Below are positions 518-47,267 of a DNA stretch of 64,000 nt, one piece after another (positions within the stretch are counted from its first letter, which is position 1; each line of letters starts with the position of its first letter). The notes below the pieces were generated by a model that worked only from the letters and a program-made list of their open reading frames with translations, made no database searches and was not told where the DNA came from. Origin of the DNA: Azospirillaceae bacterium (GTDB lineage Bacteria; Pseudomonadota; Alphaproteobacteria; Azospirillales; Azospirillaceae); contig JAPWJW010000003.1 in NCBI GenBank assembly GCA_028283825.1, positions 2,418,501 through 2,482,500 on the forward strand. Direction: 5' to 3'. The translations under genes and the position numbers were made by a program.

Positions 518-617
518 GGACGCGACGGCGTCCGCCGGAGTTTTCCGGGGAGCGTCAGTGGACTGGAAAACGAGGAAGCCCCAAGCGGCCGGATGGCCGC
601 GCCCGGCGACTGAGGGA
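518..617 (+). repeat. Dispersed hairpin element, copy A
   Basis: First copy of the intergenic structured repeat. Stem 2 is GGACGC/GCGTCC around loop GACG (518-533). Stem 3 is GTTTTCC (540-546) with GGAAAAC (565-571) around a GGGGAGCG...GTGGACT loop. Stem 4 is GCGGCC (585-590)/GGCCGC (595-600) around GGAT. The tail GCCCGGCG...TGAGGG ends at 617. The leading 12-13 bp stem 1 of other copies is absent. It lies between tadA and the next gene, on the tadA strand. Function unknown. Confidence 0.85.
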
Positions 618-643
618 CGTTTGTCAAAATAAAGGACAACCGC

Positions 644-1318
644 ATGCCGCTCTACCGCGACGACTACGGCGCCTTCTACTGGTCCTTGCGCGGCGATGTG
701 ACGGGCGAGGTGGTGCGCGACACGCCTTTTCACAAGGACGCCGGCACCCGCGTGCAGCGGGTGCGGCCGGAACAGCAGGGGCGCATCCTGTGGACGGCGC
801 GGGCCATGTTCGCCCTGTTGGGGCTGGAGGCGCTGACCGTATTGGCGCTGGCCGTCGGGTTGTTGGTCATCCCGCCCGGCTGGCCGGCGGCCCTGGCGTT
901 GAACGCCTTCCTGCCGGGCACCGTGCTGTCGGAACTGACGGTGTCGGTGCTGCTGCCGTTGTCGTGCGAATGGACGACGGTGCGCCACCCCTTGCGCATC
1001 GTCGCGCATCAGGCGCCCAGCCTGCTGCTGGCGCCCTTGCTGCCCATCCTGGGGCCCCTGCTGCATGTCGCGGCCGTGGCCGTGATCATGTGGCGCGATG
1101 GCACGGGGCTCCTGGCCCTGCGGACCTTCCTGGGCCGGACGGACCTGTGGGAGCGGGGCGTGCTGGCGCTGGCGGCCTTGGCGCTGGGCGTCCTGGCCGG
1201 CTGGCTGATCCGCCAGTGCGCGGTCGCCTGGATGGCGTCCCGCCGCCGTCCCGCGACACCCACCCCCGGCCTGCGGGTGGCGGCGTCGCGGGACCGGCGG
1301 GTGGGCCGGGGCGATTAG
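644..1318 (+). CDS. Hypothetical membrane protein
   Basis: A 224-residue protein I do not recognise. The first 45 residues are polar and basic; four or so hydrophobic stretches follow (about residues 50-75, 80-108, 125-150 and 165-190), so it is probably an inner-membrane protein. The tail is Arg-rich and cytoplasmic-looking. Third positions are mostly G or C as in neighbouring genes, and AAGGA sits 9-13 bases before the ATG, so the gene looks real and native. Its stop overlaps the stop of the convergent TPR gene by four bases. No catalytic motif is visible. Confidence 0.7.
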   Translation: MPLYRDDYGAFYWSLRGDVTGEVVRDTPFHKDAGTRVQRVRPEQQGRILWTARAMFALLGLEALTVLALAVGLLVIPPGWPAALALNAFLPGTVLSELTVSVLLPLSCEWTTVRHPLRIVAHQAPSLLLAPLLPILGPLLHVAAVAVIMWRDGTGLLALRTFLGRTDLWERGVLALAALALGVLAGWLIRQCAVAWMASRRRPATPTPGLRVAASRDRRVGRGD

Positions 1319-2220
1319 GCCTCCGGCTTTTCTTCCGTCGCTTCTTCCACTTTGGCCGCTTCGCCGGCGGCCTTGTCGGCGCGATAGGCGTCGAAGGCGA
1401 TCTTGACCGAGCGGGCGGTCTCGCTGTCCGGATACGTGGCGGCCCACTGGTCGGCCAGGTCGGCGGCGGCGTCGCCGTTGCCGCCCTGGGCCATCACGGT
1501 CAGGCAGCGGGCATAGAACTGCTGCGGCACCGGGTGGGTGGGGGTGGTCTGCACCAGCACCCAGATGATCTGCGCCGCCTCATCCGTGCGGCCCATGGCG
1601 ATCAGGGTGTCGGCCAGGGCCAGGCGGGCGTCGCCCTGGGACGGATCCAGGCTGGCGCAGGCGTGGAACTCCGCCGCCGCCGCGTCCAGGCGGCCGGTGT
1701 TGCGCAGCACCAGGCCCAGGTTGAAATGGGTCTCGGCCCGGTTGGGGTCGATCTCCAGCGTGTGGCGCCAGGCGTCCTCCGCCCCGGCCAGGTCGTTGGA
1801 CTGGCCGCAGGCCACGCCCAGGGCGTGCCAGGCCTCCGCGAACTGCGGGTTCAGTTCCACCGCGCGGCGGAAGCTTTCGATGGCCTCGGCCGTCTTGCCC
1901 TGGCCCAGCAGGGCCATGCCCAGGTTCTGGTGGGGCGGCGGATGGTTGGGGTTCAGCGACCGCGCCTTCTTCAGGCAGGTCACCGCCTCATCGAACTTGC
2001 CCAGGCCCTGCAGCACGGCGCCCAGGTTGGACCAGGCGATGCGCACCTCCGGGATGGCGGCATAGATGCGGATGATGGCGCGGTAGGCGTTCTCCGCCTC
2101 CTTCAGCCGGCCCTGGCGGTGCAGGTCGGCTGCCACCCGCATGTCGTTGGTGAAGGGCGCGTTGGCGCTCGCGTCCTTGGAGATTTCGGAAATGCGGCGG
2201 CGACGGTCCTGACGGTTCAT
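1315..2220 (-). CDS. Tetratricopeptide repeat protein
   Basis: A 301-residue protein built from tandem TPR units between about residues 27 and 235. Successive units carry the TPR pattern (for example AWSNLGAVLQGLGKFDEAV, then HQNLGMALLGQGKTAEAI), which forms a helical protein-binding scaffold. There is no signal peptide; the N-terminus is very basic (MNRQDRRRR) and the C-terminus is Ala/Glu-rich and probably disordered, so it is likely cytoplasmic. CAAGGA lies just before the ATG. The partner and pathway are not evident: purD behind it on the same strand is 90 bases away and unrelated. Confidence 0.8.
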   Translation of the reverse strand: MNRQDRRRRISEISKDASANAPFTNDMRVAADLHRQGRLKEAENAYRAIIRIYAAIPEVRIAWSNLGAVLQGLGKFDEAVTCLKKARSLNPNHPPPHQNLGMALLGQGKTAEAIESFRRAVELNPQFAEAWHALGVACGQSNDLAGAEDAWRHTLEIDPNRAETHFNLGLVLRNTGRLDAAAAEFHACASLDPSQGDARLALADTLIAMGRTDEAAQIIWVLVQTTPTHPVPQQFYARCLTVMAQGGNGDAAADLADQWAATYPDSETARSVKIAFDAYRADKAAGEAAKVEEATEEKPEA

Positions 2221-2310
2221 CTCTATGGTGTCCTTGAAAATCCTACGGGGGCCTGCCTCATGGGGTGTTTGAGGTCAGGCCCGCGCCCCTGCTTCCCCTG
2301 AAGACGGACC

Positions 2311-3609
2311 TTACAGGCCCGCCTTCTCCCGCTCAATCGCACGCCAGCCGATGTCCCGCCGGCAGAAGCCTTCCGGCCACCGGATGCGGTCCACCGCCTG
2401 ATAGGCCAGGGCCTGCGCCTGGGCCACGGTCCGGCCCACGGCCGTCACGCCCAGCACCCGGCCGCCGTTGGCCAGCACCGTGTCGCCATCCGCCCTGGTG
2501 CCGGCATGGAAGACGGTGACGCCATCCACGGCGCCAGCCTCATCCAGGCCGCCGATGACGGTGTTCTTCACGTAATCGCCGGGATAGCCATCGGCCGCCA
2601 TCACCACGCACAGCGCGGGCTCGTCGTGCCAGCGCAGATCCACGTGGTCCAGCTGGCCGTCGCAGGTGGCCAGCAGCACCGGCAGGATGTCGGACTTCAG
2701 GCGCCGCATCAGCACCTGGCATTCCGGGTCGCCGAAGCGGGCGTTGAATTCGATCAGGCGCGGCGTCGGCCCGTTCGGGCCGGGCTCGATCATCAATCCG
2801 GCGAACAGCACGCCCTTGAACGGCGTGCCCTCGGCCGCCATGCCCTTGACCGTGGGTTCCACGATCTCGCGCATCACCCGGTCCTGAAGCTCCGGCGTCA
2901 GCACGGGGGCGGGGGAATAGGCCCCCATGCCGCCGGTGTTGGGGCCCTGGTCGTTGTCGAACACCCGCTTGTGGTCCTGGGCGCCCACCAGGGGCAGCGC
3001 ATGCGTGCCGTCGCACAGGGCGAAGAAGCTGGCCTCCTCCCCCTCCATGAACTCTTCGATCACCACCTCATCGCCGGCATCGCCGAAGCGGCCGTTCAGC
3101 ATGGCGTCGTCGATGGCGGCCAGCGCCTCATCCAGGGTCATGGCGATGACGACACCCTTGCCGGCGGCCAGGCCGTCGGCTTTCACCACGATGGGGGCGC
3201 CCTGTTCGGTGGCGTAGGCCTTGGCGGATGCGGCATCCGTGAAGCGCTTATAGGCGGCGGTGGGCACGCCGTACTTGGCGCAGATGTCCTTCATGAAGCC
3301 CTTGGACCCTTCCAGGGCGGCGGCGGCCTGGCTGGGGCCGAAGGCCTTGATGCCGGCGGCGGTCAGCCGGTCCACCAGGCCCAGCACCAGCGGCTGTTCC
3401 GGGCCCACCACCACCAGGTCCACGGCGTTGGCGGTGGCGAAGGCCACCAGGCCGTCCACATCGTCGGCCTTGATATCGACGCAGGCCGCCACATTGCGGA
3501 TGCCGGCGTTGCCGGGCGCGCACCATAGGGTGCCGCACAGGGGGGAGGCCTGGATGGCCCAGCACAGGGCATGCTCCCGCCCGCCGGATCCAACGACAAG
3601 GATCTTCAT
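2311..3609 (-). CDS. purD: Phosphoribosylamine-glycine ligase (GARS)
   Basis: Second step of de novo purine synthesis: joins glycine to 5-phosphoribosylamine using ATP. The 432-residue protein has the family's features in order: N-terminal [14 protein letters not shown], the ATP-grasp region with [11 protein letters not shown] near residue 145, QDHKR and the glycine-rich [10 protein letters not shown] near 225, and the metal-binding [13 protein letters not shown] near 285. Length is normal. The reading frame begins one codon earlier at a GTG (3612); the ATG at 3609, which gives the usual MKILV start, is preferred. It diverges from xseA across about 60 bases, which must hold both promoters. 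Confidence 0.97.
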
Positions 3610-3670
3610 CACGCCTACTCCCGGATCCCGATTCCATCTGTTGCGCGGGGGGTTGTATCATGCCCGCGCC

Positions 3671-5305
3671 ATGACTCAAGACTTCCCCGACTCATCCATC
3701 CCCCCCGCCGCCGATCTGGGCTATGCCGCCACCAAGCCGGTGGCCGGCGGCAACCTGCCGGAGCTTTCGGTTTCCGACCTGTCGCGCGCGCTGAAGCGCA
3801 CGGTGGAGGAGACGTACGGCTATGTCCGCGTGCGGGGCGAGGTCAGCCAGCCCAAGCGCGTCTCCTCCGGCCATCTCTATCTGCGCCTGAAGGATGACCA
3901 GTCGGTGATCGAGGCCGTGTGCTGGAAGGGCACGGTCATGCGCCTGTCGGTGAAGCCCGAGGACGGGATGGAGGTGATCTGCACTGGCCGCCTGACGACC
4001 TACCCCGGCCGCTCGCAATACCAGCTGATCATCGAGACGATGGAGCTGGCGGGCGAAGGCGCCCTGCTGAAGATGCTGGAGGAGCGCCGGCGCCGGCTGG
4101 CGGCGGAGGGGCTGTTCGATGCCCAGCGCAAGCGGCCGCTGCCCTTCCTGCCCCAGGTCATCGGCGTGGTGACTTCGCCCACCGGCGCCGTCATCCGCGA
4201 CATCCTGCACCGCCTGGCCGACCGTTTCCCCCGGCACGTCCTGCTGTGGCCGGTGGCGGTGCAGGGCGAGGGGGCGGCGGCCCAGGTGGCCCGCGCCATC
4301 CAGGGCTTCAACGCCATCGCGCCCGGCGGCCCGGTACCCCGACCCGACCTGCTGATCGTGGCGCGCGGCGGCGGCAGCCTGGAAGACCTGATGGCCTTCA
4401 ATGAGGAGATCGTGGTGCGGGCGGCAGCGGCCAGCCAGATCCCCCTGATCTCCGCCGTCGGGCATGAGACCGACACCACGCTGATCGACTTCGCCTCCGA
4501 CCGCCGGGCGCCCACGCCCACCGCCGCTGCCGAGATGGCGGTGCCGGTGCGGGCGGAGCTGCTGGCCCAGGTGATGGAAAGCGGCCGCCGCCTGGAAGGG
4601 GCGGCGGGCCGCCTGTTGAATGAACGCCGCTCACGGGTGGAAGGGCTGGGCCGTGGCCTGGGCGACCCGCGTGCGCTGCTGGAGGGGGCCGCCCAGCGGC
4701 TGGACGACCGGGGCGAACGCCTGGGCCTGTCCATGACCGGCCTGATCCGCCGCCATCGGACGGAAGTGGCGAAGCTCAGCGCCGGCCTGCGTCATCCGGC
4801 CCAGGTGCTGGCCATGGCCCGCACCCATCTGGACCTTGCCAGCCGGGGCCTGGCTGGCGGCGTCACCCGCCTGATCGCCGATCGTGCCAATCGCGCCCAA
4901 ACCCTGGGCCAGCGCCTGACACCCCAGCCCCTGGTGCGCCGGGCGGAGGAGGGCGGGGTGCGCCTGGCCGACCTGGGCCGCCGGCTGGATGCCAGCTTCG
5001 GCCGCGCCGTGGCCGATGGCGCCCGCCGGCTGGAAGGGCAGTCCAAGCTGCTGGAGACGCTCTCATACCGCGGGGTGCTGGCGCGCGGTTTCGCCCTGGT
5101 GACGACGGCCGAGGGCCATCCCGTCACCCGTGTCGATCAGGCCCCGGCGGGCGAACGGGTGCGGGTGGAGTTCATCGATGGTGCCGTGGGCGCCCTGCTG
5201 GACGGTGAGGCGCCGGCCAAACCCGCCGGGCCGCCCCGCGACTCGGCGCCCACGCCGAAGCCCCGCGCGCCCGGCCGGCCCGGCGGCCAGGGCAGCCTGT
5301 TCTGA
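3671..5305 (+). CDS. xseA: Exodeoxyribonuclease VII large subunit
   Basis: Catalytic subunit of ExoVII, which degrades single-stranded DNA from either end with the small subunit XseB (not in this window). 544 residues. An OB-fold lies at about 25-125 (VRVRGEVSQPKRVSSGHLY), the nuclease core at 145-330 includes GVVTSPTGAVIRDI, VARGGGSLEDLMAFN and SAVGHETDTTLIDFASD, and a long helical, Arg-rich segment follows, as in the coiled-coil arm of the family. The reading frame is open upstream into purD; the ATG at 3671 is chosen because it restores normal length. The C-terminal 30 residues are Pro/Arg-rich. Copy B of the structured repeat begins 24 bases after the stop. Confidence 0.95.
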   Translation: MTQDFPDSSIPPAADLGYAATKPVAGGNLPELSVSDLSRALKRTVEETYGYVRVRGEVSQPKRVSSGHLYLRLKDDQSVIEAVCWKGTVMRLSVKPEDGMEVICTGRLTTYPGRSQYQLIIETMELAGEGALLKMLEERRRRLAAEGLFDAQRKRPLPFLPQVIGVVTSPTGAVIRDILHRLADRFPRHVLLWPVAVQGEGAAAQVARAIQGFNAIAPGGPVPRPDLLIVARGGGSLEDLMAFNEEIVVRAAAASQIPLISAVGHETDTTLIDFASDRRAPTPTAAAEMAVPVRAELLAQVMESGRRLEGAAGRLLNERRSRVEGLGRGLGDPRALLEGAAQRLDDRGERLGLSMTGLIRRHRTEVAKLSAGLRHPAQVLAMARTHLDLASRGLAGGVTRLIADRANRAQTLGQRLTPQPLVRRAEEGGVRLADLGRRLDASFGRAVADGARRLEGQSKLLETLSYRGVLARGFALVTTAEGHPVTRVDQAPAGERVRVEFIDGAVGALLDGEAPAKPAGPPRDSAPTPKPRAPGRPGGQGSLF

Positions 5306-5328
5306 TCCACGCCGTCCCCTTTTTTATA

Positions 5329-5429
5329 GGCCGCGACCGCGGCCGCCGGAGCTTTCTGGGGAGCCGAAGGCGGACTGGAAAGCGAGGACAAGGCAAGGGC
5401 CCGGATGGGCCCGCCCGCCGATTGAGGGA
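5329..5429 (+). repeat. Dispersed hairpin element, copy B
   Basis: Stem 2 GGCCGC/GCGGCC around GACC (5329-5344); stem 3 GCTTTC (5351-5356) with GAAAGC (5378-5383); stem 4 GGGCCC/GGGCCC around GGAT (5397-5412); tail ending TTGAGGGA. Stem 1 is absent. Compared with copy A, stems 2, 3 and 4 all carry base changes on both arms that keep the pairing. It follows xseA on the same strand, and an IS630 element is inserted 13 bases beyond its tail. Confidence 0.85.
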
Positions 5430-5443
5430 ACGACTTAAAACTA

Positions 5444-6494
5444 GAGCATTTTGAAATAAGGCTGAATCGGTAAGGGGGATTCCCATTTATTTGGGCCTCT
5501 GATTCACTGCGTCTGTCTTGAGATGGAGGCAGTGGCGATGGGTCGTCCGTATTCAATGGATCTTCGTGAACGGGTAGTGGCCGCAGTTCAGGGGGGCCTG
5601 TCGCGGCGTCAGGCGGCGGCTCGGTTCGGTGTGAGCGACAGCGCGGCGATCAGGTGGATGAAGCGCCTGAACGAGACGGGTGACGTCGCCCCTGGTCAGA
5701 TGGGCGGTCACAAGCCCAAGAAGATATCCGGTGACCATCACACCTGGCTTGTTGCGCGCTGCCAGGAGCGGCCCTTCACCCTGGCCGTCCTGATCGCGGA
5801 ACTGGGGGAACGCGGCCTGAAGGTCGACTACCGTTCGGTCTGGGAGTTCGTCCGTGGCCAGGGGCTGACTTATAAAAAAAGACGCTGGTCGCCAGCGAGC
5901 AGGACCGCCCCGACGTTGCCCACCGACGAGCGCAATGGGTGAAGCACCGGGCGTCGGTCGATCCGTCCCGCCTGGTGTTCATCGACGAAACCTGGACCAA
6001 AACCAACATGGCGCCACTCCGAGGATGGGGGCCGCGCAGTGAGCGCCTTGTCGGCAAGGCGCCCTTTGGCCATTGGAACACCATGACCTTCCTGGCCGCC
6101 CTGCGCCATGACCGCATCGAGGCTCCTTGGCTCTTGAACAAGCCCGTCAACGGCCAGCGCTTCCAGGTCTATGTCGAGGAGGTTCTCGCTCCGACCTTGA
6201 GCAAGGGCGATGTCGTCATCATGGACAACCTTCCCTCCCACAAGGCCAAGCCCGTTCGCAAGGCCATCCGCGACGCCGGCGCTAAGTTAATCTTCTTACC
6301 AAAATACTCCCCGGACATGAACCCCATCGAGAAGTTCTTCTCCAAGCTCAAGCATTCTTTGCGTGAGGCCCAGCCACGATCTATCGAGGCCCTCTGCAAG
6401 AGCATCGTAAAGACCATGGATACTGTTACGCCAGCGGAATGCTCAAACTACTTCAAAAGTTGCGGGTATGGACCAACCTAAAATCATAATGCTC
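5444..6494 (+). mobile_element. IS630-family insertion sequence, complete
   Basis: A 1051-bp element flanked by a TA dinucleotide at each end (5442-5443 and 6495-6496), as expected for IS630/Tc1-mariner target duplication. The ends are inverted: the left begins GAGCATTTTGA and the complement of the right begins GAGCATTATGA. It carries a single transposase read through a frameshift. Both ends and the coding capacity look intact, so it may be active. Its right edge lies exactly at the stop codon of the minus-strand acyltransferase gene. Confidence 0.93.
5523..6481 (+). CDS. IS630-family transposase made by -1 frameshift
   Basis: DDE transposase encoded in two overlapping frames. The first part (5523-5942) carries a helix-turn-helix domain (MDLRERVVAAVQGGLSRRQA). 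The second (stop 6481) carries the catalytic core with the first Asp in VFIDETW, the second in VVIMDNLPSHK and the final acidic residue in SPDMNPIEKFFSKLK. The frames join at seven consecutive A (5874-5880, in TAT AAA AAA AGA); slipping back one base there gives KKTLVASEQD, restoring a continuous family-typical protein. A -1 slippage of this type is known in IS630 elements, so I read it as programmed rather than as damage. The start may be 5523 or the ATG at 5538 (MGRPYSMDL). Confidence 0.92.
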
Positions 6495-7402: not shown

Positions 7403-7616
7403 GACTGCCCCGTTGCGGCCCGGCCACGATGGCATGGGGCGCATTGTTCTGGGAATGGAATGATCCGATCCCAGGCAGGGGCCCAAGCCCGTGATGAAGG
7501 CGCGCAGGATGGATGCCGCCCGCGCCCAAACGCCGGCGGCGCGTAAAGCTATCGGGTGCTTTTTGCCGCAGGTCAAGGGAAGGCGTCCCAAAGTCAGGGG
7601 AACGCGAAGGGTGGTC

Positions 7617-8531: not shown

Positions 8532-8590
8532 GGCACGCGGCATTGCAGATCAGGCGATGCATGCTCGAAAACGGTCCTGCCGGGGGGCGC

Positions 8591-21121: not shown

Positions 21122-21244
21122 TCCCTCAAATGCCGGGCGGCCGGCTTGGGCTTCCTCGGTTTCCAGTCCGCTGACGCTCCCCAGAAACCTGCGGCGGCGC
21201 CGGTCGGCGCCTACAGCGGCGTGAGGAAAAGCCTCACGCCGCTG
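21122..21244 (-). repeat. Dispersed hairpin element, copy C
   Basis: Minus-strand copy. Stem 1 is a perfect 13-bp hairpin CAGCGGCGTGAGG/CCTCACGCCGCTG (21214-21244). Stem 2 is GGCGCC/GGCGCC around GACC. Stem 3 is GGTTTC/GAAACC with the usual GGGGAGCG...GCGGACT loop. Stem 4 has lost its GGAT loop and is shortened to GCCGG/CCGGC. The tail reads ATTTGAGGG. The element overlaps the 3' end of rppH: the stem 1 arm supplies the last codons and stop of that gene. Confidence 0.82.
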
Positions 21245-21722
21245 GCACCAAATGCCTAAAGGCGGCCACCACCTGAACGTAAAGCTCGCGCTTGAAGGGC
21301 ACGATCAGGTCCACGGTCTTTTCCAGCGACACCCACTGCCAGGCATCGAACTCCGGATGCTCGGTATCCAGGTCGATATCGCTATCCTGACCGGTGAAGC
21401 GGCAGGCCAGCCACTTCTGCTTCTGGCCGCGATACTTGCCCTTCCAGGCGACGCCGACCAGTTCCGGCGGCAGGTCATACTGCAGCCAATCCGCCGTCTC
21501 CTCTAGGATGGTCGCCTTGGCCGTGCCGATCTCCTCCTCCAGTTCGCGCAAGCCGGCTTGCGCCGGCGTCTCCCCCTTGTCGATGCCGCCCTGGGGCATC
21601 TGCCAGGCGCCTGGGGTGTCGCGGCGCTGGCCGACGAAGACCAGGCCTTGGGCGTTCAGCAGGCAGATGCCGACGCAAGGGCGATAGGGCAGGGTGGTGG
21701 GATCGACAGGCTTGGCCGTCAT
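21234..21722 (-). CDS. rppH: RNA pyrophosphohydrolase (Nudix)
   Basis: Removes pyrophosphate from mRNA 5' ends, starting decay, or acts on dinucleoside polyphosphates. 162 residues. It opens with the conserved [11 protein letters not shown] and carries a complete Nudix box at residues 45-67 (GG-x5-E-x7-REL-x-EEIG) with all catalytic Glu present. Other family features, including [11 protein letters not shown] and [12 protein letters not shown], are intact. The final PAA-stop is encoded within copy C of the dispersed repeat, so the C-terminus was shaped by that insertion. Confidence 0.94.
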
Positions 21723-29703: not shown

Positions 29704-29753
29704 GCGCGCTGCTCTACCACCCTCGCCGGGTGGCGGGAAGGGGGATCAGCCAA

Positions 29754-29785
29754 ACGGCCGGATGCCGGCGCCCGGCGCTTGAGGG
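29754..29785 (+). repeat. Dispersed hairpin element, 3' fragment
   Basis: Only the stem 4/tail part of the repeat is present: CGGCCGGATGCCGGCGCC followed by the CGGCGCTTGAGGG tail. It lies directly before full copies D and E and ends with the same joining sequence, so it is the remnant of a third tandem unit. Confidence 0.75.
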
Positions 29786-29796
29786 CGGCGCGGAAC

Positions 29797-29921
29797 CAGT
29801 GGCATGAGAACCTCATGCCACTGTAGGTGCCGACCGGCACCGCCGGAGCCTTTCGGGGAACGCAGTGGACTGAAAGGCGAGGAAGCCCAGCCGGCGGATG
29901 CCGGCGCCCGGCGCTTGAGGG
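29797..29921 (+). repeat. Dispersed hairpin element, copy D
   Basis: Stem 1 CAGTGGCATGAG/CTCATGCCACTG (29797-29823); stem 2 GGTGCC/GGCACC around GACC; stem 3 GCCTTTC/GAAAGGC around GGGGAACGCAGTGGACT; stem 4 CCGGC/GCCGG around GGAT; tail GCGCCCGGCGCTTGAGGG. First of two tandem units with a 136-bp period. Confidence 0.88.
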
Positions 29922-29932
29922 CGGCGCGGAAC

Positions 29933-30057
29933 CAGTGGCATGAGAACTTCATGCCACTGTAGGTGCCGACCGGCACCGCCGGAGCCTTTCGGGGAACGCA
30001 GTGGACTGAAAGGCGAGGAAGCCCAGCGGGCGGATGCCCGCGCCCGGCGCATGAGGG
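29933..30057 (+). repeat. Dispersed hairpin element, copy E
   Basis: Nearly identical to copy D, but stem 1 has one changed loop base, stem 4 is CGGGC/GCCCG around GGAT (paired changes relative to D), and the tail reads GCATGAGGGG. It runs toward the 3' end of ccrM on the opposite strand and stops 11 bases short of it, next to a TTGATCAA palindrome. Confidence 0.88.
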
Positions 30058-38204: not shown

Positions 38205-38245
38205 TCCCTATCAGCTGGCCGCCCATTGCGGACGGTGGTTTGACG

Positions 38246-38274: not shown

Positions 38275-38289
38275 TGGTCGTTCATGGGC

Positions 38290-39593: not shown

Positions 39594-40094
39594 ATGATGG
39601 GAAAACGCGGGGCCATCGCGGCGCTTGCCGTCGTGGCCGGGGCTGGCCTGTCGGTCGCGATGGCGGGGCGGGCGGAGACGGCGGGTGTGTCGGTGGAGCG
39701 GGGGCGCTACATCACCATCATCGCCGGCTGTAACGATTGCCATACCGAGGGATACGCGAAAAGCGGCGGAACCTTGCCGCCGACCGCCTGGCTGAAGGGT
39801 GACCCCGTCGGCCACCAGGGGCCCTGGGGCACGACCTATGCCGTCAACCTGCGGCTCTACCTGCGGGATGTGAGCGAGGATGAGTGGGTGGCCCGCGTCC
39901 GCGCCATGAAGACCCGTCCGACGATGCCGTGGTTCAACATGCGGGTGATGGAGGAGGCGGACGTCCGCTCCCTCTACCGTTTCATCCGTTCCCTGCCCGG
40001 TGACGCCGGCCCGCCCATGCCGGATTATGTGGCACCTGGTGATCGGCCCACGACGCCGGTGACCGTCCACGTGCCCCAGCCGCCCCAGCCCTGA
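39594..40094 (+). CDS. Periplasmic cytochrome c
   Basis: 166 residues. Signal peptide (IAALAVVAGAGLSVAMA, cleavage near GRA-ET), then a single heme-binding site CNDCH in GCNDCHTEGYAKSGG. C-terminal helices include VRSLYRFIRSLPGDAGPP, as in small class I cytochromes, with Met candidates for the sixth ligand in TMPWFNM. The open frame extends 76 codons upstream without signal-peptide sense; the ATG at 39594 is chosen. Monocistronic; electron partner unknown. Confidence 0.85.
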   Translation: MMGKRGAIAALAVVAGAGLSVAMAGRAETAGVSVERGRYITIIAGCNDCHTEGYAKSGGTLPPTAWLKGDPVGHQGPWGTTYAVNLRLYLRDVSEDEWVARVRAMKTRPTMPWFNMRVMEEADVRSLYRFIRSLPGDAGPPMPDYVAPGDRPTTPVTVHVPQPPQP

Positions 40095-40101
40095 TACCCG
40101 T

Positions 40102-40258
40102 GCCCTTGATCGTGACCGATCAAGGGCGCCCTCAAGCGCCGGGCGCCGACATCCGTCGGCTTGGGCTTCCTCGGTTTCCGGTCCACTGCGTTCCCCAGAA
40201 ACCTGCGGCGGCTGCCGTCGCAGCCTACAGCGGCATGAACCGAACTTTCATGCCGCTG
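40102..40258 (-). repeat. Dispersed hairpin element, copy F (with fifth stem)
   Basis: Minus-strand copy. Stem 1 CAGCGGCATGAA/TTCATGCCGCTG (40228-40258); stem 2 GGCTGC/GCAGCC around GACG; stem 3 GGTTTC/GAAACC; stem 4 GCCGAC/GTCGGC around GGAT; tail GCGCTTGAGGG. A fifth hairpin GCCCTTGATC/GATCAAGGGC (40102-40127) follows. Pairs in stems 2 and 4 differ from copies A-E on both arms. Confidence 0.85.
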
Positions 40259-40281
40259 GTGTCAGGCCTCATCCAGACATG

Positions 40282-40317: not shown

Positions 40318-40340
40318 GCTTCCAAGCGAAGATCGGTGCG

Positions 40341-41621
40341 TCAGGCCGGCGTGACGGCCAGGCGGGCGCACACCGCCTCGATCAGCAACTGGCGGGCGCG
40401 ATCAACGATGTCGTCCATGGACGGCGTGCGCACGAACATGGCGGCCGCCCGTTCCCGCAGCTCATCCCGGGTGGGCAGGGTCGGCATGCTGGGCAGCGAC
40501 GGCATGTGCAGGTCGGGCAGGCTGGGCATGTGCAGGTCCGGCATATGCAGCGAGGCCAGCATGGCCTCCGCCTGGGCGCGGGCGTTTTCCAGCTTGTGCT
40601 GCAACTCCGCCTTCACATCGGCCAGCGAGGGGGTATCGGCCAGGGTGGCCTGCAGGCGGGCGGCGATCTGCTCCACATGGAAGGTGGCGACCAGCTGGCT
40701 GGCGGCCTTTTCGATGATGGCCTTGCCCAGGCGCTGCTCGCCACGCACCACGGTGGCCGGCGGGCGGTGCAGGTCCCAGGTGATGCCCACCCACGACAGG
40801 GCTTTCAGGATGTAATAGGTCGTGTCCACTTCCCACCAGCGGAAGCCCTGGCAGGCCGCACTCTGATAGGCGTGGTGGTTGTTGTGCCAGCCCTCACCCA
40901 TGCTCAGCAGGGCGAACCACCAGTTGTTGCGGCTGTCATCGCCGGTCAGATAGCGGCGGCGGCCGTACACATGGGCCAGCGAGTTGATGCAGAAGGTGCC
41001 GTGGTAGGCGGCGATGGTGCTCCAGAAGAAACCCACCACCAGGCCGGACCAGCCGAACAGGGCCCAGACGGCCACGCCCAGCACGGTGGCCGGCAGGTGG
41101 TGGTACCGCTCCAGGAAGCGCAGCTCGGGATACTTGGCCAGGTCCGGCACCGCCGCCAGGTCGGTCTTGTCGTGGCGCGGCGTGAAGATCCAGCCCACGT
41201 GCGCGTACCAGAAGCCGCGCTGGACCGGGGAATGCACGTCGTTGGGCGTGTCGGAATAGCGGTGGTGATGGCGGTGCTTGGCCGCCCACCACAGGACGCC
41301 GCGCTGGGCCGAGGTCTGGGCGATGAAGGCCAGCACGAACTGGAACACGCGGCCGGTCTTATAGGCGCGGTGCGAGAAATAGCGATGATAGCCGGCGGTG
41401 ATGCCGAACATGCGCAGGAAATAGAGGCCGACCGCCAGCATAACGTCCTGCATGGCCACGCCCGTCCAGATGGCGGCGAAACAGGCCAGGTGCACGGCGA
41501 TGAAGGGCAGGGTGCCCACGGCCTGGAATTCATCCAGGTGGCTGTCCGACTGCGCGGCGGCGGTTTTGCGGGCGGGCGTGGTCACCTGGCGTTTCACTCC
41601 GGCAAGGGGCGCCGGGCGCAT
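40341..41621 (-). CDS. Acyl-CoA/fatty acid desaturase
   Basis: Membrane di-iron desaturase, probably introducing a delta-9 double bond into acyl chains. 426 residues. Three His boxes: HRYFSH, HRHHHRYSD and HNNHH (in GEGWHNNHHAYQSAA). Four hydrophobic helices pair around 45-90 and 195-235. An unusual C-terminal tail of about 110 residues contains a Met/Pro-rich repeat built on LHMPSLPDLHMPSLP; family members often end soon after the third box. Start at MRPAPLAG (41621) or the in-frame ATG at 41675. A terminator follows. Confidence 0.9.
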   Translation of the reverse strand: MRPAPLAGVKRQVTTPARKTAAAQSDSHLDEFQAVGTLPFIAVHLACFAAIWTGVAMQDVMLAVGLYFLRMFGITAGYHRYFSHRAYKTGRVFQFVLAFIAQTSAQRGVLWWAAKHRHHHRYSDTPNDVHSPVQRGFWYAHVGWIFTPRHDKTDLAAVPDLAKYPELRFLERYHHLPATVLGVAVWALFGWSGLVVGFFWSTIAAYHGTFCINSLAHVYGRRRYLTGDDSRNNWWFALLSMGEGWHNNHHAYQSAACQGFRWWEVDTTYYILKALSWVGITWDLHRPPATVVRGEQRLGKAIIEKAASQLVATFHVEQIAARLQATLADTPSLADVKAELQHKLENARAQAEAMLASLHMPDLHMPSLPDLHMPSLPSMPTLPTRDELRERAAAMFVRTPSMDDIVDRARQLLIEAVCARLAVTPA

Positions 41622-41789
41622 CGGCCGGCGTCGGGTGTCGTCTATATCGGTTGGATAGCAGGAAACGGCGGCCAAGCCGACTCCGTGTTTCGAGGGATCC
41701 TCCGATTGCGTCGCAGTTTAACCGGGGAACCCTGAAGGGGACCTTAACAACGCCACCGGCATCGCGGCCTTGGCCTGGATCAACCGGGG

Positions 41790-42534
41790 CTAAAAATCCG
41801 GTGGCAGGTCGGACGCCGCCACATCGCCGGCGAAGGAGGCGGCGACGGCATGGGCGGACCCACCTTCCATCCACCAGCCGGAATCGGCCAACTTGCCCTC
41901 GTACAATTCCATCACCGGTTTCTGCAGGCGATCAACCAGCACCATGTCGTGCGTCGCCACCAGGCAGGTGGTGCCCAGCTTGTTCAGCTCGATGAACAGC
42001 CGCATGATGCGCAGGCTCATCTCGCGGTCGATGTTGCCCGTGGGCTCGTCCGCGATGATCAGCTTGGGGCGCGTGACCACGGCGCGGGCGATGGCCACCA
42101 ACTGCTTCTGCCCGCCCGACAGGCGCAGGGGCCGCTCGTCCAGCTTGGCCTTCAGCCCCACCCAGGACAGCAGTTCCAGTCACGCTTTCCTGGACATGGC
42201 CCTCATCCTGGCCGGCCAGGCGCAGGGGCAGTGCCACATTGTCGAACACCGTCAGATGGTTCATCAGGCGGAAGTCCTGGAACACCACGCCGATCTGCCG
42301 GCGCAGGGCCGGCAGATCGCGGCGCGGGGTCTTGGACAGGGGATGGCCCAGCAGGGTGATCAGGCCGCGCGACGGCCGTTCCGCCAGATATAGCAGCTTC
42401 AGCAGGCTGGACTTGCCGGCACCGGTGGGGCCGGTCAGGAAATGGAAGGAACCGGGCGCCAGTTCGAAACTGATGTCGCGCAGCACCTCCGGACCGGTGC
42501 CGTACCTGAGACCGACATTCTCGAAACGAACCAA
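41790..42534 (-). pseudogene. ftsE: Cell-division ABC ATPase FtsE, frameshifted
   Basis: N-terminal part: MVRFENVGLRYG, Walker A TGPTGAGKSSL and Q-loop VVFQDFRLMNHLTV, then out of frame after HVQESVT. The other frame gives GLKAKLDERPLRLSGGQKQ (ABC signature), Walker B LIIADEPTGNID and H-loop LVATHD to the stop at 41790. Removing one C of the pair at 42176-42177 restores SVTELLSWVGLKAK and a normal-length FtsE with an extended tail. FtsE normally pairs with membrane protein FtsX encoded next to it; here the following gene is a desaturase and no ftsX is seen. Either an error in an otherwise real gene or a decaying orphan copy. Confidence 0.85.
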
Positions 42535-42572
42535 GGGCGGTTTTCCTCAACAAGGGAAGCGGGCTGAATGAA

Positions 42573-42610
42573 GAAGGCCCGGCCCCGCAGGGTGGCGGTG
42601 ACCGGGCTTC
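42573..42610 (-). terminator. Hairpin upstream of ftsE
   Basis: GAAGCCCGG and CCGGGC-CTTC pair with one bulged base across a long loop. No clear T tract; could end the ParA-like transcript or act as a leader structure for ftsE. Confidence 0.35.
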
Positions 42611-42619
42611 GTTATATAT

Positions 42620-42780
42620 GGGCATTTGATCGTGCCGACCAAATGCCCACCTCAAGCGCCGGGCGCCAACATCCGTTGGCTTGGCTTCCTCGATTTTCAG
42701 TCCGCCTTCGGCTCCCCAAAAATCTCCGGCGGCTGCAGTCGCAGCCTACAGCGGCATGAGTTAAACCTCATGCCACCGCA
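42620..42780 (-). repeat. Dispersed hairpin element, copy G (with fifth stem)
   Basis: Minus-strand copy starting 21 bases after the ParA-like stop. Stem 1 is 12 bp with two mismatches; stem 2 GGCTGC/GCAGCC around GACT; stem 3 GATTTT/AAAATC; stem 4 GCCAAC/GTTGGC around GGAT; tail GCGCTTGAGG. The fifth hairpin, GGGCATTTG/CAAATGCCC (42620-42648), keeps the GGTCGG-CACGATC core seen in copy F with a different outer stem. Confidence 0.85.
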
Positions 42781-42800
42781 TTGGATCGCACGGAGGGCGG

Positions 42801-43631
42801 TCAGCCGGCTTCCGCCGCCTCGGCCTCGGCGCGCTGGCTGGTCGGGAACAGGCCCGCCTTCTCGAACGCCGTCAGGGTTTCCTGCGCCCAGGCGCGCAGG
42901 TCGGTCAGGCCGCTGTGGCCGGTCCACACGTCGATGCCGTAGCGCTTTTCCAGGTCGGCGTCGGTCATCTTCAGCGCGTCGCGGACGGAGATGAACTCCT
43001 TCTCCAGCAGCTTCCAGATGTCGCTTTCGCAGCGCTTGATGGTGATCAGGCCGACGCCCTGGCTCTGGAAGCTCTTCAGGCGGCGGAAGGACTGGTCGTT
43101 CTCATAAGGGCCGAAGCCGCCGGCCACCTCGTTCAGCACGACGAAGCGGCGGCCGAAGGGCAGCCACTCATTCTTGTCGAACGAGTACTGGATCAGGGCG
43201 CGGGCGTCCTCGATGGCCTGGGCCTCGGCCTTGGTCGTGACGATCAGGTCGATGGGGGCGCTGTTGCGGCGGCGCAGCAGGGCGCCGGCGTTGCGCGCCT
43301 CGGCCCAGGCGAACAGGTCGGCGGCGACGTTGGCGCCCACGTCCACCACATGGCCACCCTCCAGCAGGGTGCGGCCGAATTCGTCCCAATACTTGATGGC
43401 CAGGTTGGGGTCGGTCGAGGTCTTGATGTTGGTCAGCTGCTCGCCGATGCCCAGTTCCTTCACGCCGGCGAACAGGCGGCCGAACTTGGAGCGCTGGTTC
43501 AGGGGATCGCTGTCGGCGGCGGACAGTTTGACGGGGCTGCCCTTCTGCTCATGCTGCAGGACCAGCATCTGGGCCACCAGCGTCTTGCCTTGGCCGCCGG
43601 TCTTGGCCATCGAGATATAGGTGCGCGTCAT
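42801..43631 (-). CDS. ParA/MinD-like P-loop ATPase of unknown role
   Basis: 276 residues from MTRTYISMAKTGGQGKT, whose Lys10-Lys16 pattern (K-x-GG-x-GK-T) is the deviant Walker A of the ParA/MinD group. DSDPLNQRSKFGRLF and VVDVGANVAADLF fit the switch and Walker B positions, but the rest is not a standard ParA and no ParB lies beside it. It resembles the mobilisation/StbB-type ATPases only loosely. Codon use is native. An N-terminal extension to 43670 is possible. Function unassigned. Confidence 0.75.
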   Translation of the reverse strand: MTRTYISMAKTGGQGKTLVAQMLVLQHEQKGSPVKLSAADSDPLNQRSKFGRLFAGVKELGIGEQLTNIKTSTDPNLAIKYWDEFGRTLLEGGHVVDVGANVAADLFAWAEARNAGALLRRRNSAPIDLIVTTKAEAQAIEDARALIQYSFDKNEWLPFGRRFVVLNEVAGGFGPYENDQSFRRLKSFQSQGVGLITIKRCESDIWKLLEKEFISVRDALKMTDADLEKRYGIDVWTGHSGLTDLRAWAQETLTAFEKAGLFPTSQRAEAEAAEAG

Positions 43632-43893
43632 CTGGTCGTTCTCCTGGTCCCGCATTCTTCGTCCCGGCATGACCCCTTGTCTCCCCTACCCCTGTCGTCG
43701 TGCTGACGATTCCCCTGGGGGACGGCAAGTCCTCCGGGGCCTGTTGAGACCAGGGCCGGAACGTCGCGCGGGGCGCGTCCGGCCGGGCCTTGAATCGATA
43801 CAGGTTTTCCCCCGGCGCTTCAACTGCGGGCGGCCGGCTCCACCGAAATCGCCGGTGAAGGGCGGTGGGAAGGGGCGGGCGGGAGGCGGGGCG

Positions 43894-44439
43894 TCAGCCC
43901 TTGTGCTCCTGCAGGCGGGGCATGATCTCCACCAGGTTGCAGGGGCGAAAACGGTTGTCCAACTGGAACTTCAGGATCAGGTCCCAGCCGTCGCGGCAGG
44001 CGCTGGGGCTGCCCGGCAGGGCGAACAGATAGGTGCCGCCGGCGACACCGCCGGTCGCCCGGCTTTGCAGGGCCGAGGTGCCGATCTTCTCATAAGACAG
44101 GGTGCGGAACATCTCGCCGAAGCCATCGATTCGCTTCTCATACACGCTCTCGAACGCCTCCGGCGTGACGTCGCGGCCGGTCAGGCCGGTCCCGCCAGTG
44201 GAGATGACCACGTCCACCGCCGGATCGGCGATCCAGGCCCGCAGCTGCGCCGCGATGGCATCCTGGTCGTCCTTGACGATGGCCCGGCCCGCCAGCACGT
44301 GGCCGGCGCCGGCCAGCCGCTCCACCAGGGTGTCGCCCGATTTGTCGGCCGCCAGGTCGCGGGTGTCGGACACGGTCATGACCGCGATCTGCACGGGCAG
44401 GAAGGGGCGGGTTTCATCGATGCGGGACAAGGGCGGCAC
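43894..44439 (-). CDS. moaB: Molybdenum cofactor biosynthesis protein MoaB
   Basis: 181-residue MoaB/MogA-fold protein, likely adenylating molybdopterin before molybdenum insertion. VMTVSDTRDLAADKSGD near residue 20, the phosphate-binding VVISTGGTGLTGRDVTPEAFE near 80-100, and YLFALPGSPSACRDGWD near 145 are all conserved. Preceded on the same strand by a phosphatase-like gene 69 bases upstream; a functional link is not obvious. Confidence 0.92.
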   Translation of the reverse strand: MPPLSRIDETRPFLPVQIAVMTVSDTRDLAADKSGDTLVERLAGAGHVLAGRAIVKDDQDAIAAQLRAWIADPAVDVVISTGGTGLTGRDVTPEAFESVYEKRIDGFGEMFRTLSYEKIGTSALQSRATGGVAGGTYLFALPGSPSACRDGWDLILKFQLDNRFRPCNLVEIMPRLQEHKG

Positions 44440-44508
44440 TCCACCGGAAAGGGCTGTCGGGCTTTCCCTTAAGTGCGATGCCGCTGGGCCGGCGTCAACC
44501 GGACGGGC

Positions 44509-45324
44509 TCAGACTTCCACCACTTCCAGCAATTCGCCCCCGGCATCGAAGCAGCCGCAGGCCAGCACGCCGCCGAAACCACAGCCGCCGTCCAGGGTGA
44601 TGGCGTGGGCGTTGGCCACCAGGCCGCCATGGCTGGGGTCATAGCCCCGCACCACCCGGCTGAAGCCGGCGTAGGGCTGTTCGATACGGGGGAAGGCGGT
44701 GCCGCCCCACCAGAAGCTGTCGCCCTGGGCCGCCAGGGGGCGCGAGGTGTCGATGCCGGCGTTGACGAACAGCATCTCCGGCATGCCGTCCTGGCGCCGC
44801 TCGGTATAGGCGGCGCGGCGCACGGCCGCGAACAGGGTGTCGTGGCCGGGGGCGGCGCGTTGGGCGGCGCGCAATTGCCCCGTCCAGCGGGCCAGCGACA
44901 CCGCGCCGTCGCGGGCGGCGGCCACGCCCTGGTAGGCGCTGCCGCCATAGGCCGCCAGGGTGGCGTCCACCCCTTGGGTCATCATCCATTGCAGCACTTC
45001 GGCGGGATTGGGCGCGAACTGCAACTGCAGCAGCTTCTGCCACATCTCCTCCTGCCCGCCGCGCAGGTAGACCAGGTCGCCGACGATGACGCCGCGGATG
45101 GACAGCACGGCCCGGCGGAAGGACAGCAATTCGTCCAGCGTGTCGCGCACGCGGGGCCCGCGGCCGATCAGGTTGCCCAGGTAGAGCAGCCGGTCGCCCG
45201 GCTGGAAACGGGCGCCGATATCGTCATGCAGGGCCGCCAGCCGGTCCACGTCGCCGTGGATGGCGCCAACGGCCCAAATGCGGCGCGGCCGGCCCAGCAC
45301 GACAAAGCGTTCCTGTTCGTTCAT
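44509..45324 (-). CDS. Phosphatase-like metallophosphoesterase with altered metal motifs
   Basis: 271-residue protein with the calcineurin-like layout but weakened motifs. AVGAIHGDVDRL keeps the GD-x-H region in altered form; YLGNLIGRGP stands where GD-x-VDRG is expected; and YLRGGQEEMW replaces the usual GNHE. C-terminal GGLVANAHAITLDGGCGFGG is typical of Ser/Thr-phosphatase-like members. The loss of the Asn-His pair suggests reduced or changed catalysis; it may bind rather than cleave. Alone between moaB and a bidirectional terminator. Confidence 0.75.
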   Translation of the reverse strand: MNEQERFVVLGRPRRIWAVGAIHGDVDRLAALHDDIGARFQPGDRLLYLGNLIGRGPRVRDTLDELLSFRRAVLSIRGVIVGDLVYLRGGQEEMWQKLLQLQFAPNPAEVLQWMMTQGVDATLAAYGGSAYQGVAAARDGAVSLARWTGQLRAAQRAAPGHDTLFAAVRRAAYTERRQDGMPEMLFVNAGIDTSRPLAAQGDSFWWGGTAFPRIEQPYAGFSRVVRGYDPSHGGLVANAHAITLDGGCGFGGVLACGCFDAGGELLEVVEV

Positions 45325-45383
45325 GCGTGGGGTCAGACCGGCAAAAGAAGGGGTTCGGACAGTGTATGCGCCGCCGCCCCATG

Positions 45384-45418
45384 AAAAAAGGGGTGATCGA
45401 GACCGATCACCCCTTTTT
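45384..45418. terminator. Strong bidirectional terminator
   Basis: GGGGTGATCG (45390-45399) pairs perfectly with CGATCACCCC (45404-45413) around AGAC, flanked by AAAAAA on the left and TTTTT on the right. It works on both strands; on the minus strand it ends the carD message. Confidence 0.9.
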
Positions 45419-45508
45419 CCACTAAATATAGTGATCTTGGCGAACCGTAACCCCTATGGGCGGATGCCCATTGGACCAAGTGCGGATGCCTTAAGATCAG
45501 GGCCCGGA

Positions 45509-46009
45509 TCAGGCGGCCTTGGCCAGCACGGCTTCCAGGCGCTCGGTCGCCTTGCGCTCGTCGATCTTCTCGACGGCGGCCAGTTCACGGGCCAACCGCT
45601 CCAGCGCGGCATGATAGATCTGGCGTTCGCTGTAGGACTGGTCGGACTGGTCGGTGCCGCGGTGCAGGTCGCGCACCACCTCGGCGATCGACACCGGATC
45701 GCCGGAGTTGATCTTGGCCTCATACTCCTGGGCCCGGCGGCTCCACATGATGCGCTTGATCTTGGACGGGCCCTGAAGGGTCTCCATCGCGTCCTTGATC
45801 CGGTCCTTGGTGGACAGGCGACGCAGGCCGGCGTTCTTGGCCTTCATCACCGGGACCTTCAGCGTCATCCGCTCCTTCTCGAAGGTGATGGCGTACAGCA
45901 CCACTTCCATATCGGCGATGGCGTGCTTTTCGATCGCCACGATTTGTCCTACGCCGTGGGCGGGGTACACGACGTAATCACCGGTGACGAAGTCGAGCTT
46001 ATCGGTCAT
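45509..46009 (-). CDS. carD: CarD-family transcription regulator
   Basis: 166-residue RNA-polymerase-binding regulator that stabilises open promoter complexes, including at rRNA promoters. The N-terminal Tudor-like RNAP-interaction domain has FVTGDYVVYPAHGVGQIVAIE; the C-terminal helical DNA-binding domain has IMWSRRAQEYEAKINSGD and ERQIYHAALERLARELAAVE. Normal length. Downstream of fdxA on the same strand across 419 bases that contain the fdxA terminator. Confidence 0.94.
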   Translation of the reverse strand: MTDKLDFVTGDYVVYPAHGVGQIVAIEKHAIADMEVVLYAITFEKERMTLKVPVMKAKNAGLRRLSTKDRIKDAMETLQGPSKIKRIMWSRRAQEYEAKINSGDPVSIAEVVRDLHRGTDQSDQSYSERQIYHAALERLARELAAVEKIDERKATERLEAVLAKAA

Positions 46010-46428
46010 TTGGATCGGCTCTCACAAAAACGGCTATGGCGTCCCGCCTGACAGGCGGGCCCGGGCGCCGGGACGGCATGCAAAAAGTCGGTGGCGGCCC
46101 ATGGGGGGCCGCGACACGGGGCGGTCAGCACGAAGGCGCTGGGGGAACGTGGCACGCACTAGGCGTTCGTGAACGGCGTGCCGATCCTCGCGTCCAGGAC
46201 TATAACCGATATGACGTTGCCATGACAGGCCATCAAGGCCGTGTTCGACTTAAGTTCCGGGCATAGGCCAGGATGTCGGACATGCGAATCGCGCATGTCT
46301 TGGGCAGGTGCTGCCGAAGATTTAGGCGATGCCGGTTTTCACTGACGCCGCCATTCCCGCGTAAAGTGCGGAGAAGTCGTAAAAGGCGCCGCCCGGTCGT
46401 GCGGGCGGTGCCTTTTACCGGACTGGAC
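46010..46428. other. Intergenic region between fdxA and carD
   Basis: 419 bases. It holds the fdxA terminator at one end and, toward carD, a GGCGTCCCGCCTG...CGGGCCCGGGCGCCGGGACG inverted region (about 46037-46073) that would fold in the carD leader. Expected site of the carD promoter; no open frame looks real. Confidence 0.5.
46379..46418 (-). terminator. Intrinsic terminator of fdxA
   Basis: GTAAAAGGC-x-CCGCCCG pairs with CGGGCGG-x-GCCTTTTAC across a six-base loop with one mismatch, 11 bases after the fdxA stop. The built-in A and T runs make it usable from either side. Confidence 0.85.
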
Positions 46429-46767
46429 TCAATTACCGCTGCCGGGCTTGTCGCTGAAATAGGTCTTGTACTTGTCGGGCACGTTCTTGAAGGCGTCGGC
46501 CTCGGGCAGGGCCGCCTTCTTGCGGTTCAGGTTCGGCCAGAGGGTGGCGAACTGGCGGTTCATCTCCAGCCACTGCTCGGCACGGCCGTCCGTGTCGGGC
46601 AGAATGGCCTCGGCCGGGCATTCCGGTTCGCAAACGCCGCAGTCGATGCATTCGTCGGGGTGAATGACCAGCGTGTTCTCACCCTCGTAGAAGCAGTCAA
46701 CGGGGCAGACTTCCACGCAGTCGGTGTACTTGCATTTGATGCACTGCTCGGTCACGACGTACGGCAT
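46429..46767 (-). CDS. fdxA: 7Fe ferredoxin FdxA
   Basis: 112-residue ferredoxin with one 3Fe-4S and one 4Fe-4S cluster. It starts [25 protein letters not shown] and has [12 protein letters not shown] near residue 40; the C-terminal 40 residues ([19 protein letters not shown]) are the usual alphaproteobacterial extension. AAGGAG precedes the ATG at 46767; a longer upstream frame is not used. Partner to carD in many alphaproteobacteria. A terminator follows. Confidence 0.95.
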
Positions 46768-47267
46768 GCTTGCACTCTCCTTCAAATTCCATTCCCCAGG
46801 CGCCCAAACAGGGGGCAGCCACCATGGGGACGGCACCGGGCACGTATATCCCGATAACGGCCAGGGGTATAGCACCCGCAACGTCGGCCTGATTCACGCC
46901 CTCCGGATTGCGGGCCGGATGACAGCGGGAGAGGTAAAACAAGCGTGGGGCCGACGCAACTGCGATGAATGCACATCGCCGCTGTCCGGCGTGGCACCCC
47001 ATGAAAGCCTTGCGCGCAAAGGGTGCGCGCCGCGTTGAATTTTCCCGTATCGTCCGGATAGTCTTGAGCGCCACCGTCGCCAGGACGACATTTCACATCA
47101 GCGGCACGGGGTGTTGACACGTGCCGATGTAGGCCCCGACCGGGGCCGCCGGAAGTTTCCGGGAAGCGCAGCGGACTGGAAACTGAGGAAGCCCCAAGCG
47201 GCCGGATGGCCGCGCCCGGCGCCTGAGGGGCGGCATTTGAGCGTATCGAGCGGCATCGGGGAAACGC
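46768..47267. other. Divergent spacer between fdxA and the histidine kinase
   Basis: 500 bases. Contains the fdxA promoter side, copy H of the structured repeat (47102-47230) and the 37 bases leading to the kinase. CTTGCGCGCAAAGGGTGCGCGCCGCG near 47009 is locally palindromic. No open frame with gene-like features is seen. Confidence 0.5.
47102..47230 (+). repeat. Dispersed hairpin element, copy H
   Basis: Stem 1 position is filled by a shorter, unrelated hairpin CGGCACG/CGTGCCG (47102-47126). Stem 2 GGCCCC/GGGGCC around GACC (47132-47147); stem 3 AGTTTCC (47154-47160) with GGAAACT (47178-47184); stem 4 GCGGCC/GGCCGC around GGAT (47198-47213); tail GCCTGAGGGG. It lies 38 bases before the kinase gene, so here it would be in a 5' leader. 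Confidence 0.85.

Follow-up and report, generated by a model that had tools for sequence, protein, structure and literature searches.

We describe a short, structured, dispersed repeat found in eight copies and one fragment in a 64,000-nucleotide stretch of an Azospirillaceae genome (C3:2418501–2482500 of a 7.16-Mb assembly in five contigs; this whole stretch is referred to as the window). Our results favor, with moderate confidence, the explanation that the repeat is a non-autonomous mobile element resembling a miniature inverted-repeat transposable element (MITE), the strand of which must fold in order for the element to spread. Site gains show that the element is mobile, and its tail closes a covarying pseudoknot. 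The host is taken as Nitrospirillum, since the ObgE protein adjoining one copy is 98% identical to those of N. viridazoti CBAmc, N. amazonense BR 11622, and a strain filed as Azospirillum sp. B4.

Structure of the Element and Covariation of the Stems

The element is about 100–190 bp long, and its full-length order is TACC–H1–core–H5–GGTA, where H1 and H5 are two terminal hairpins bearing imperfect inverted ends. The core consists of stem 2 with the loop GACN, stem 3, the linker AAGCC, stem 4 with the loop GGAY, and the tail CGCCCGGCGnnTGAGGG. Comparison across genera shows near-constant letters in the loops of stem 2 (GAC) and stem 4 (GGA), in the linker AAGCCAAG, and in CGCCCGGCGnnTGAGG. The type of stem 3 differs by lineage: most window copies carry the long form GGGGAGC..GGACT, there is also a short form GAGCACCGAAGGGCGCAGC, and loops such as CCCATG or CTTATG are seen elsewhere; the window copies have an additional 2–3 bp hairpin within the stem-3 loop.

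All eight copies and the fragment listed in the original prediction, which was made from the letters of the window alone, were recovered by reading and aligning these letters, and the cores were re-bounded from them. Stems 2–4 had been claimed for each copy; this holds in that all cells pair despite the differing arms, with the reservation that stem 4 is truncated in the copy at 21123. In the 8-row alignment, stems 2, 3, and 4 and the small stem-3-loop hairpin form standard pairs in 155 of 155 cells (shuffled mean 78.9%), and 11 of 20 pairs show a two-sided change. Sliding the partners breaks up the pairing and leaves a covariation score of no more than 0.098, against 0.613 in register; none of 500 shuffles matched the pairing or the covariation score, which bears out the claim of compensatory base changes with constant loops.

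The tail closes a covarying pseudoknot, in which P5 pairs the linker GCC with GGC of the tail and P6 pairs CCC after stem 4 with GGG of TGAGGG. This was established on 181 distinct hairpin-4 copies (138 from Nitrospirillum and 43 others) selected for TGAGG, a tail that reads GGC or GCC, and at least four perfect pairs in stem 4; these features are not free in the set, whereas the C-run, the last base of TGAGGN, and the linker are. For P6, 151 of the 157 copies with a C-run of 3 have G as the last base, and 21 of the 24 with a shorter run have a different base there (p = 4 × 10−19), the counts (C-run of 3 with G and without, shorter run with G and without) being 112/5/3/18 in Nitrospirillum and 39/1/0/3 in the others. 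For P5, the 164 copies with the tail GGC have the linker GCC in 152 cases, GGC in one, both readings in three, and an unclassified linker in eight, and the tail GCC is accompanied by the linker GGC in 16 of 17 copies. It should be noted that all these pseudoknot counts come from related sequences and overstate the number of independent events.

In a 58-row MAFFT alignment drawn from the same set, 95.2% of the 669 cells of the pseudoknot and stem 4 pair, compared with 76.2% after shuffling, and 114 cells changed two-sidedly, compared with 38.8; two weaker measures, which count pairs or types, were reached by 24 and 29 of 500 shuffles. The middle pair of P5 is CG in 48 rows and GC in nine, and the outer pairs fail in 8 of 49 lettered cells for P6 and in 5 of 58 for P5. 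Pairing of the linker GCCGG with the tail was also considered and dropped by eye; copies with the tail GCCG keep this linker unchanged.

The strand written TAGG...TGAGGG is likely the folded one, to judge from mismatch types, because G.T exceeds A.C there. Among 129 long stem-3 matches, the loop-closing pair is CG in 83, TG in 31, and CA in none, and over six pairs of stem 3 there are 42 G.T, 12 A.C, and 57 other mismatches in 774 cells. Stem 2 has 10 G.T versus 4 A.C in 141 copies chosen for at least 3 of 6 pairs, a rule that replaced a looser and noisy pattern (247 matches, 845 of 1482 cells paired). Stem 4, which is perfect in 83 of 94 copies with 25 distinct arms, is strand-neutral (6 G.T versus 4 A.C).

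Ends and Target Repeats

The ends were defined by a hairpin beside TACC upstream and a hairpin beside GGTA downstream, a rule that replaced a stricter one (8 copies, 3 exact repeats) and selected 13 copies in the fetched loci. One of these, L007, was judged spurious; of the remaining 12 full-length copies, one is from Nitrospirillum and 11 are from other genera, two of them from a single genome. TNA stands outside the left end in 11 of 12 copies and outside the right end in 12 of 12, and exact 3-nt repeats flank 7 of 12, with extension to 4 nt in none. Four letters of TACC...GGTA are forced by the end rule, and likeness was scored beyond them: the two ends within a copy are alike at 6.2 of 10 free positions, against 4.3 between copies (0 of 5000 shuffles), indicating terminal inverted repeats. 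Repeats of 3 bp of the form TNA or TWA are known in the IS5-family groups IS1031 and ISL2 and in PIF/Harbinger elements.

Gain, Orientation, and Probable Exchange between Copies

Comparison with stretches of five other Nitrospirillum genomes bears on the prediction of a mobile repeat. Of 52 own-genome copies tested, 26 were unmappable in any relative and 26 mapped in at least one; among the latter, 12 copies (11 sites) are empty in all five relatives and two are occupied in all five, empty meaning that there is no profile match, so that remnants may be missed. At five gaps (H, K, R, and those of own-genome copies 16 and 22), orientation is opposite between species. Sites have thus been gained, and the element is mobile.

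The relatives have 12–15 copies per 379–400 kb, against 53 in 443.5 kb of the own genome, by a profile that was derived from own copies and favors the own genome; the eight-copy covariance model described below finds 16 and 12 copies in two of the five. By the same profile, the density in C3:2218501–2662019 is about 3 to 4 times that in the five relatives. A lineage-specific expansion in this region is likely.

Eighteen shared sites gave 81 ortholog pairs, after three members of opposite orientation were dropped. Stem 2 shows 64 two-sided and 16 other changes (11 pairs unparsed) and stem 4 shows 119 and 13 (8 pairs unparsed), where one-base shifts or misreadings affect some of the parses (g5 copy 8, for example) and may inflate the two-sided counts. 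Between the three closest genomes, which are 93–94.5% identical, there are 34 two-sided and 9 other changes. Point mutation should leave one-sided states first. The stem-3 type is swapped with the flanks kept at sites B, C, D, E, and R, arm sets are common to different genomes, and the stems show no association in 34 parsed own-genome copies (p = 0.91, 0.40, and 0.19, at low power); together, these data point to the exchange of stems between copies, with a fresh insertion that took the place of the old copy as a possible alternative. Site M shows slow change through G.T pairs, so both exchange and stepwise change occur. Paired changes had been read as the mark of selected structure. The structure does appear selected, but at shared sites some of the paired changes look as though whole blocks had been exchanged between copies instead of single bases being compensated, and two-sided changes therefore overstate the number of independent compensatory events.

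Gene Context

A home-made gene finder predicted 366 genes in 443.5 kb. Of the 56 copies in this region, 52 are intergenic and four overlap a predicted gene; the intergenic copies comprise 26 in convergent gaps, 22 in co-directional gaps, and four in divergent gaps. Occupancy is 23 of 66 for convergent gaps, 21 of 234 for co-directional ones, and 4 of 65 for divergent ones, a preference for the convergent gaps over the rest (25 of 299; p = 2.4 × 10−7). In co-directional gaps, 12 copies are antisense and 10 are sense, and on the basis of this absence of strand preference the fold appears to serve the element rather than the flanking gene. A riboswitch upstream of genes was rejected on the same counts, the orientation not being fixed and half of the intergenic copies lying in convergent gaps. 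The tail faces an oppositely oriented gene in 38 copies, 23 of which end within 15 nt of its stop codon.

Abundance and Distribution

A covariance model was built from the eight window copies, as the original prediction had proposed, and run on the own genome and its relatives, where many copies matched. The own genome gave at least 150 matches, the worst among the matches listed having an E-value of 3.3 × 10−19, and 56 copies at E < 0.01 fall in 443,519 contiguous bases that include the window. These numbers agree with the predicted hundreds of copies per genome; extrapolation from this one region gives about 900. The E-values of our home-built models are rough.

All seven Nitrospirillum genomes in the draw, the own one included, have at least 69 matches each to this narrow model, which matches 14 of 240 genomes of the class Alphaproteobacteria, again with the own genome. 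A second, broader model, built from 42 copies that stem from other genera and from viral contigs, matches 35 of 385 genomes and 26 of 277 genera of the class at E 10−4, own included. In a search of the phylum, 12 of 299 genomes match, all of the same class, in a draw that may include few genomes from outside it, and we claim no class limit. Eighty named obgE loci gave 17 narrow-model matches at E up to 0.05: among them are three Nitrospirillum records and strain B4, Aerophototrophica crusticola and Niveispirillum irakense at 5 × 10−5 or better, and weak matches (5 × 10−4 to 0.014) in a Niveispirillum metagenome-assembled genome, Paramagnetospirillum marisnigri, Magnetospirillum fulvum, and an uncultured Magnetospirillum.

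With a Nitrospirillum copy as the query, matches among plasmid and phage records were limited to two Niveispirillum plasmids (30% of the query), with none in phages, and with a copy from another genus, plasmid records gave four plasmids of Niveispirillum, Azospirillum, and Novosphingobium. The tail pattern is present in 30 stretches of IMG/VR contigs. One of these contigs, IMGVR_UViG_2708742415_000004 (L309, L327, and L328), has 14 pattern matches distributed over three stretches; a 108-bp tandem array accounts for five of these. In the IMG/VR contigs, an ATG follows TGAGG by 10 or 13 nt in 8 of 41 copies (L308, L312, L314, L318, L322, L326, L333, and L336, of which L308 and L314 are near-identical), a count without a chance control; among the open frames after viral tails, one looks tape-measure-like and one primase-like. 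The tail may serve as a ribosome-binding site in viral contigs.

Copies in the Window and Variant Modules

Two plus-strand copies have no left hairpin: the core of copy 1 (stems 2–4 and tail) lies at 516–616, 27 nt upstream of a predicted gene start at 644, and that of copy 2, with the variant tail CGCCCGCCG and the linker AAGGC, lies at 5327–5428, directly 3′ of a T-tract. The core of copy 3, on the minus strand, occupies 21123–21213, with its left hairpin at about 21214–21246. A plus-strand tandem array begins with a 5′-truncated copy reduced to hairpin 4 and tail (29749–29785) and contains copy 4 (H1 29796–29823, core 29824–29921); copy 5 lies at 29932–29959 (H1) and 29960–30057 (core), also on the plus strand, and none of the five other Nitrospirillum regions shows a copy at its site.

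Copy 6 (40095–40263, minus strand) is near full-length, with H5 at about 40102–40128, the core at 40129–40227, and H1 at about 40228–40263, its ends being placed by eye. Its 3-nt flanks, TGA and TCA, are not identical, and one of them is the stop codon of a predicted gene ending at 40094. Copy 7 (42620–42780, minus strand) comprises H5 at about 42620–42648, the core at 42649–42748, and H1 at about 42749–42780, and copy 8 (47097–47260, plus strand) has H1 at about 47097–47129 and the core at 47130–47229, followed by a decayed H5.

Elsewhere, about eight copies of L069–L087 have, by eye, a second left module GGAGCGnAGCGAC in place of the left hairpin, left of TAGG/AAGG, and phage-type copies carry a hairpin at this position. 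In L058 and L107, CCCTTCGACAA..CTCAGGAGCGCG stands ahead of hairpin 4, as if one repeat lay inside another; it is similar to a repeat that is common in other bacteria.

Search for a Mobilizer and Comparison with Known Systems

At the gathering score, none of 4227 Rfam models matched in the window, consistent with the original prediction, in which no named family was known to match the element. Weak Rfam matches numbered 14 in a 401-base stretch (scattered, best E 0.014, none consistent) and three in 10 loci, none of them at the element. A literature search found no description of the element, and a search of open-licence papers for six 16-base stretches of the tail returned none.

Several candidate sources of mobility were rejected. 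An origin from repetitive extragenic palindromes (REPs) with their REP-associated tyrosine transposases (RAYTs) finds no match in the own genome to PF01797 (Y1, TnpA-REP transposase), which matches in 5 of 14 control genomes, and an IS200/IS605 or TnpB-type OMEGA element finds none to PF07282, IscB not having been searched for. Of the eight own-genome matches to PF13340, the six that were inspected belong to two IS5-like elements with three copies each, which end in AGAG rather than TACC and were dropped as parents.

There are 11 RVT_1 matches in the own genome. Eight are equal in score, at C1:730836, C1:777940, C2:346623, C3:219228, C3:608955, C3:1134094, C3:2161356, and C5:705798, each a reverse transcriptase gene with a 457-aa frame. 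A 1.85-kb unit is common to the three copies that were fetched, at 99.8% identity; by its look, this multicopy unit is probably a group II-type intron that was active recently. Four reverse transcriptase loci that were fetched gave no match to the element.

Like MITE-type elements, the element is short and without coding capacity, has inverted ends and short target repeats, and shows patchy gain between species; unlike them, it has a core kept across genera, is pseudoknotted, and has no parent transposon that we found. It shares many intergenic copies with stem-loops with the REPs and bacterial interspersed mosaic elements (BIMEs), including Br-REP1 and Br-REP2 (PMC5082802). Br-REP1 of Bradyrhizobium is found in a convergent overlap of 3′ untranslated regions (UTRs) and its consensus is given as CCGGAATCTCGAGATTCCGG (PMC5082802). 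Compared by eye only, this sequence differs from the element, which is larger and pseudoknotted and whose host has no Y1 transposase.

The HEARO/OMEGA RNAs are structured RNAs borne by dispersed mobile elements related to IS200/IS605. Our element differs from these in that nothing in Rfam matches it at the thresholds applied, its full-length copies are flanked by TNA repeats, and its host is without PF07282. The RIMEs, intergenic mosaic elements of rhizobia in Alphaproteobacteria, are made of palindromes; by description, the element is akin to them as an alphaproteobacterial intergenic palindrome mosaic.

Discussion

The explanation that we prefer, a MITE-like element that depends on folding, would work as follows. 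The ends and flanking repeats suggest a DDE-type transposase acting in trans. With insertion at TNA, the stop codons TAA and TGA (which read TTA and TCA on the opposite strand) would be natural targets and would remain intact afterwards, and stop-codon insertion together with selection against gene damage would leave the convergent bias. The folded strand, either RNA or displaced single-stranded DNA, would be recognized by the trans-acting machinery, only foldable copies would spread, and exchange between copies would keep the loops uniform while reshuffling the arms.

A number of observations weigh against this explanation. Exact repeats at only 7 of 12 full-length copies are marginal beyond the TNA composition (p = 0.05 without L007 and 0.027 with it). 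Most own-genome copies have no H5, and a target repeat is not definable there; anchored multi-species alignments of such copies gave no clean junctions. By eye, about eight of the 23 near-stop copies face CTA, that is, TAG, which falls outside TNA. The PF13340 matches inspected in the own genome yielded no autonomous relative that ends in TACC, and a scan of the fetched Nitrospirillum stretches for TACC–GGTA pairs flanked by exact TNA repeats gave none, which holds for copies of the element itself as well. Finally, the old, shared sites A and B keep their loops, though remnants of a mobile element should decay, which requires either exchange or local selection.

The latter sites, occupied in all six Nitrospirillum genomes (site A is the copy upstream of obgE), also speak for a structured RNA or insulator selected by the host, which would fold in 3′ UTRs or between genes and thereby act on translation, termination, or the ends of mRNAs: there, the linker and loops of hairpin 4 and the tail are near-constant while the arms change in pairs. 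The convergent bias and the ATG spacing after viral tails (two of the eight copies near-identical, no chance control) would fit such a role too. We nevertheless regard it as unlikely, given the 12 antisense and 10 sense copies in co-directional gaps, the 12 copies absent from all five relatives, and the opposite orientations at five gaps. Rather improbable, in our view, is a retro-mobile RNA, a bacterial counterpart of short interspersed nuclear elements, in which the plus-strand transcript folds and is copied back by a reverse transcriptase in trans. The RNA-type pseudoknot and one-strand G.T bias, the 5′-truncated copy in the window, an A-rich stretch after TGAGGG in many copies (by eye), and the eight equal-scoring RVT_1 matches among 11 are all compatible with it. 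Against it, the four reverse transcriptase loci that were fetched gave no element match, and full-length copies have inverted ends and 3-bp TNA repeats. Such ends and repeats are typical of DDE transposition rather than of target-primed reverse transcription.

We give even less weight to an ordinary MITE of double-stranded DNA whose palindromes are kept perfect by hairpin-templated repair or gene conversion, with the fold itself unused. Such a process would account for the dominance of two-sided changes even between close species (34 versus 9) and for stem 4, where G-C to C-G flips are common and G.T intermediates few (6 of 564 cells). Against it, P5 and P6 covary without being arms of one palindrome, and loop and linker letters stay near-constant across genera while the arms differ. 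Unlikely, though worth entertaining, is a broader picture of a class-wide mobile pseudoknotted RNA that would spread via its own folded transcript with a trans enzyme, in genomes and phages, exchanging stems as it does so. If true, each genome would hold an evolving pool of paired arms.

Overall, the element is a large structured one without an Rfam model, with about 900 copies in one genome by extrapolation and carriers in 26 of 277 genera. It raises the question of why an RNA-like fold persists in a mobile repeat, and whether this structure is selected for transposition or for the host; hundreds of natural variants and orthologous sites at graded divergence make the question testable.

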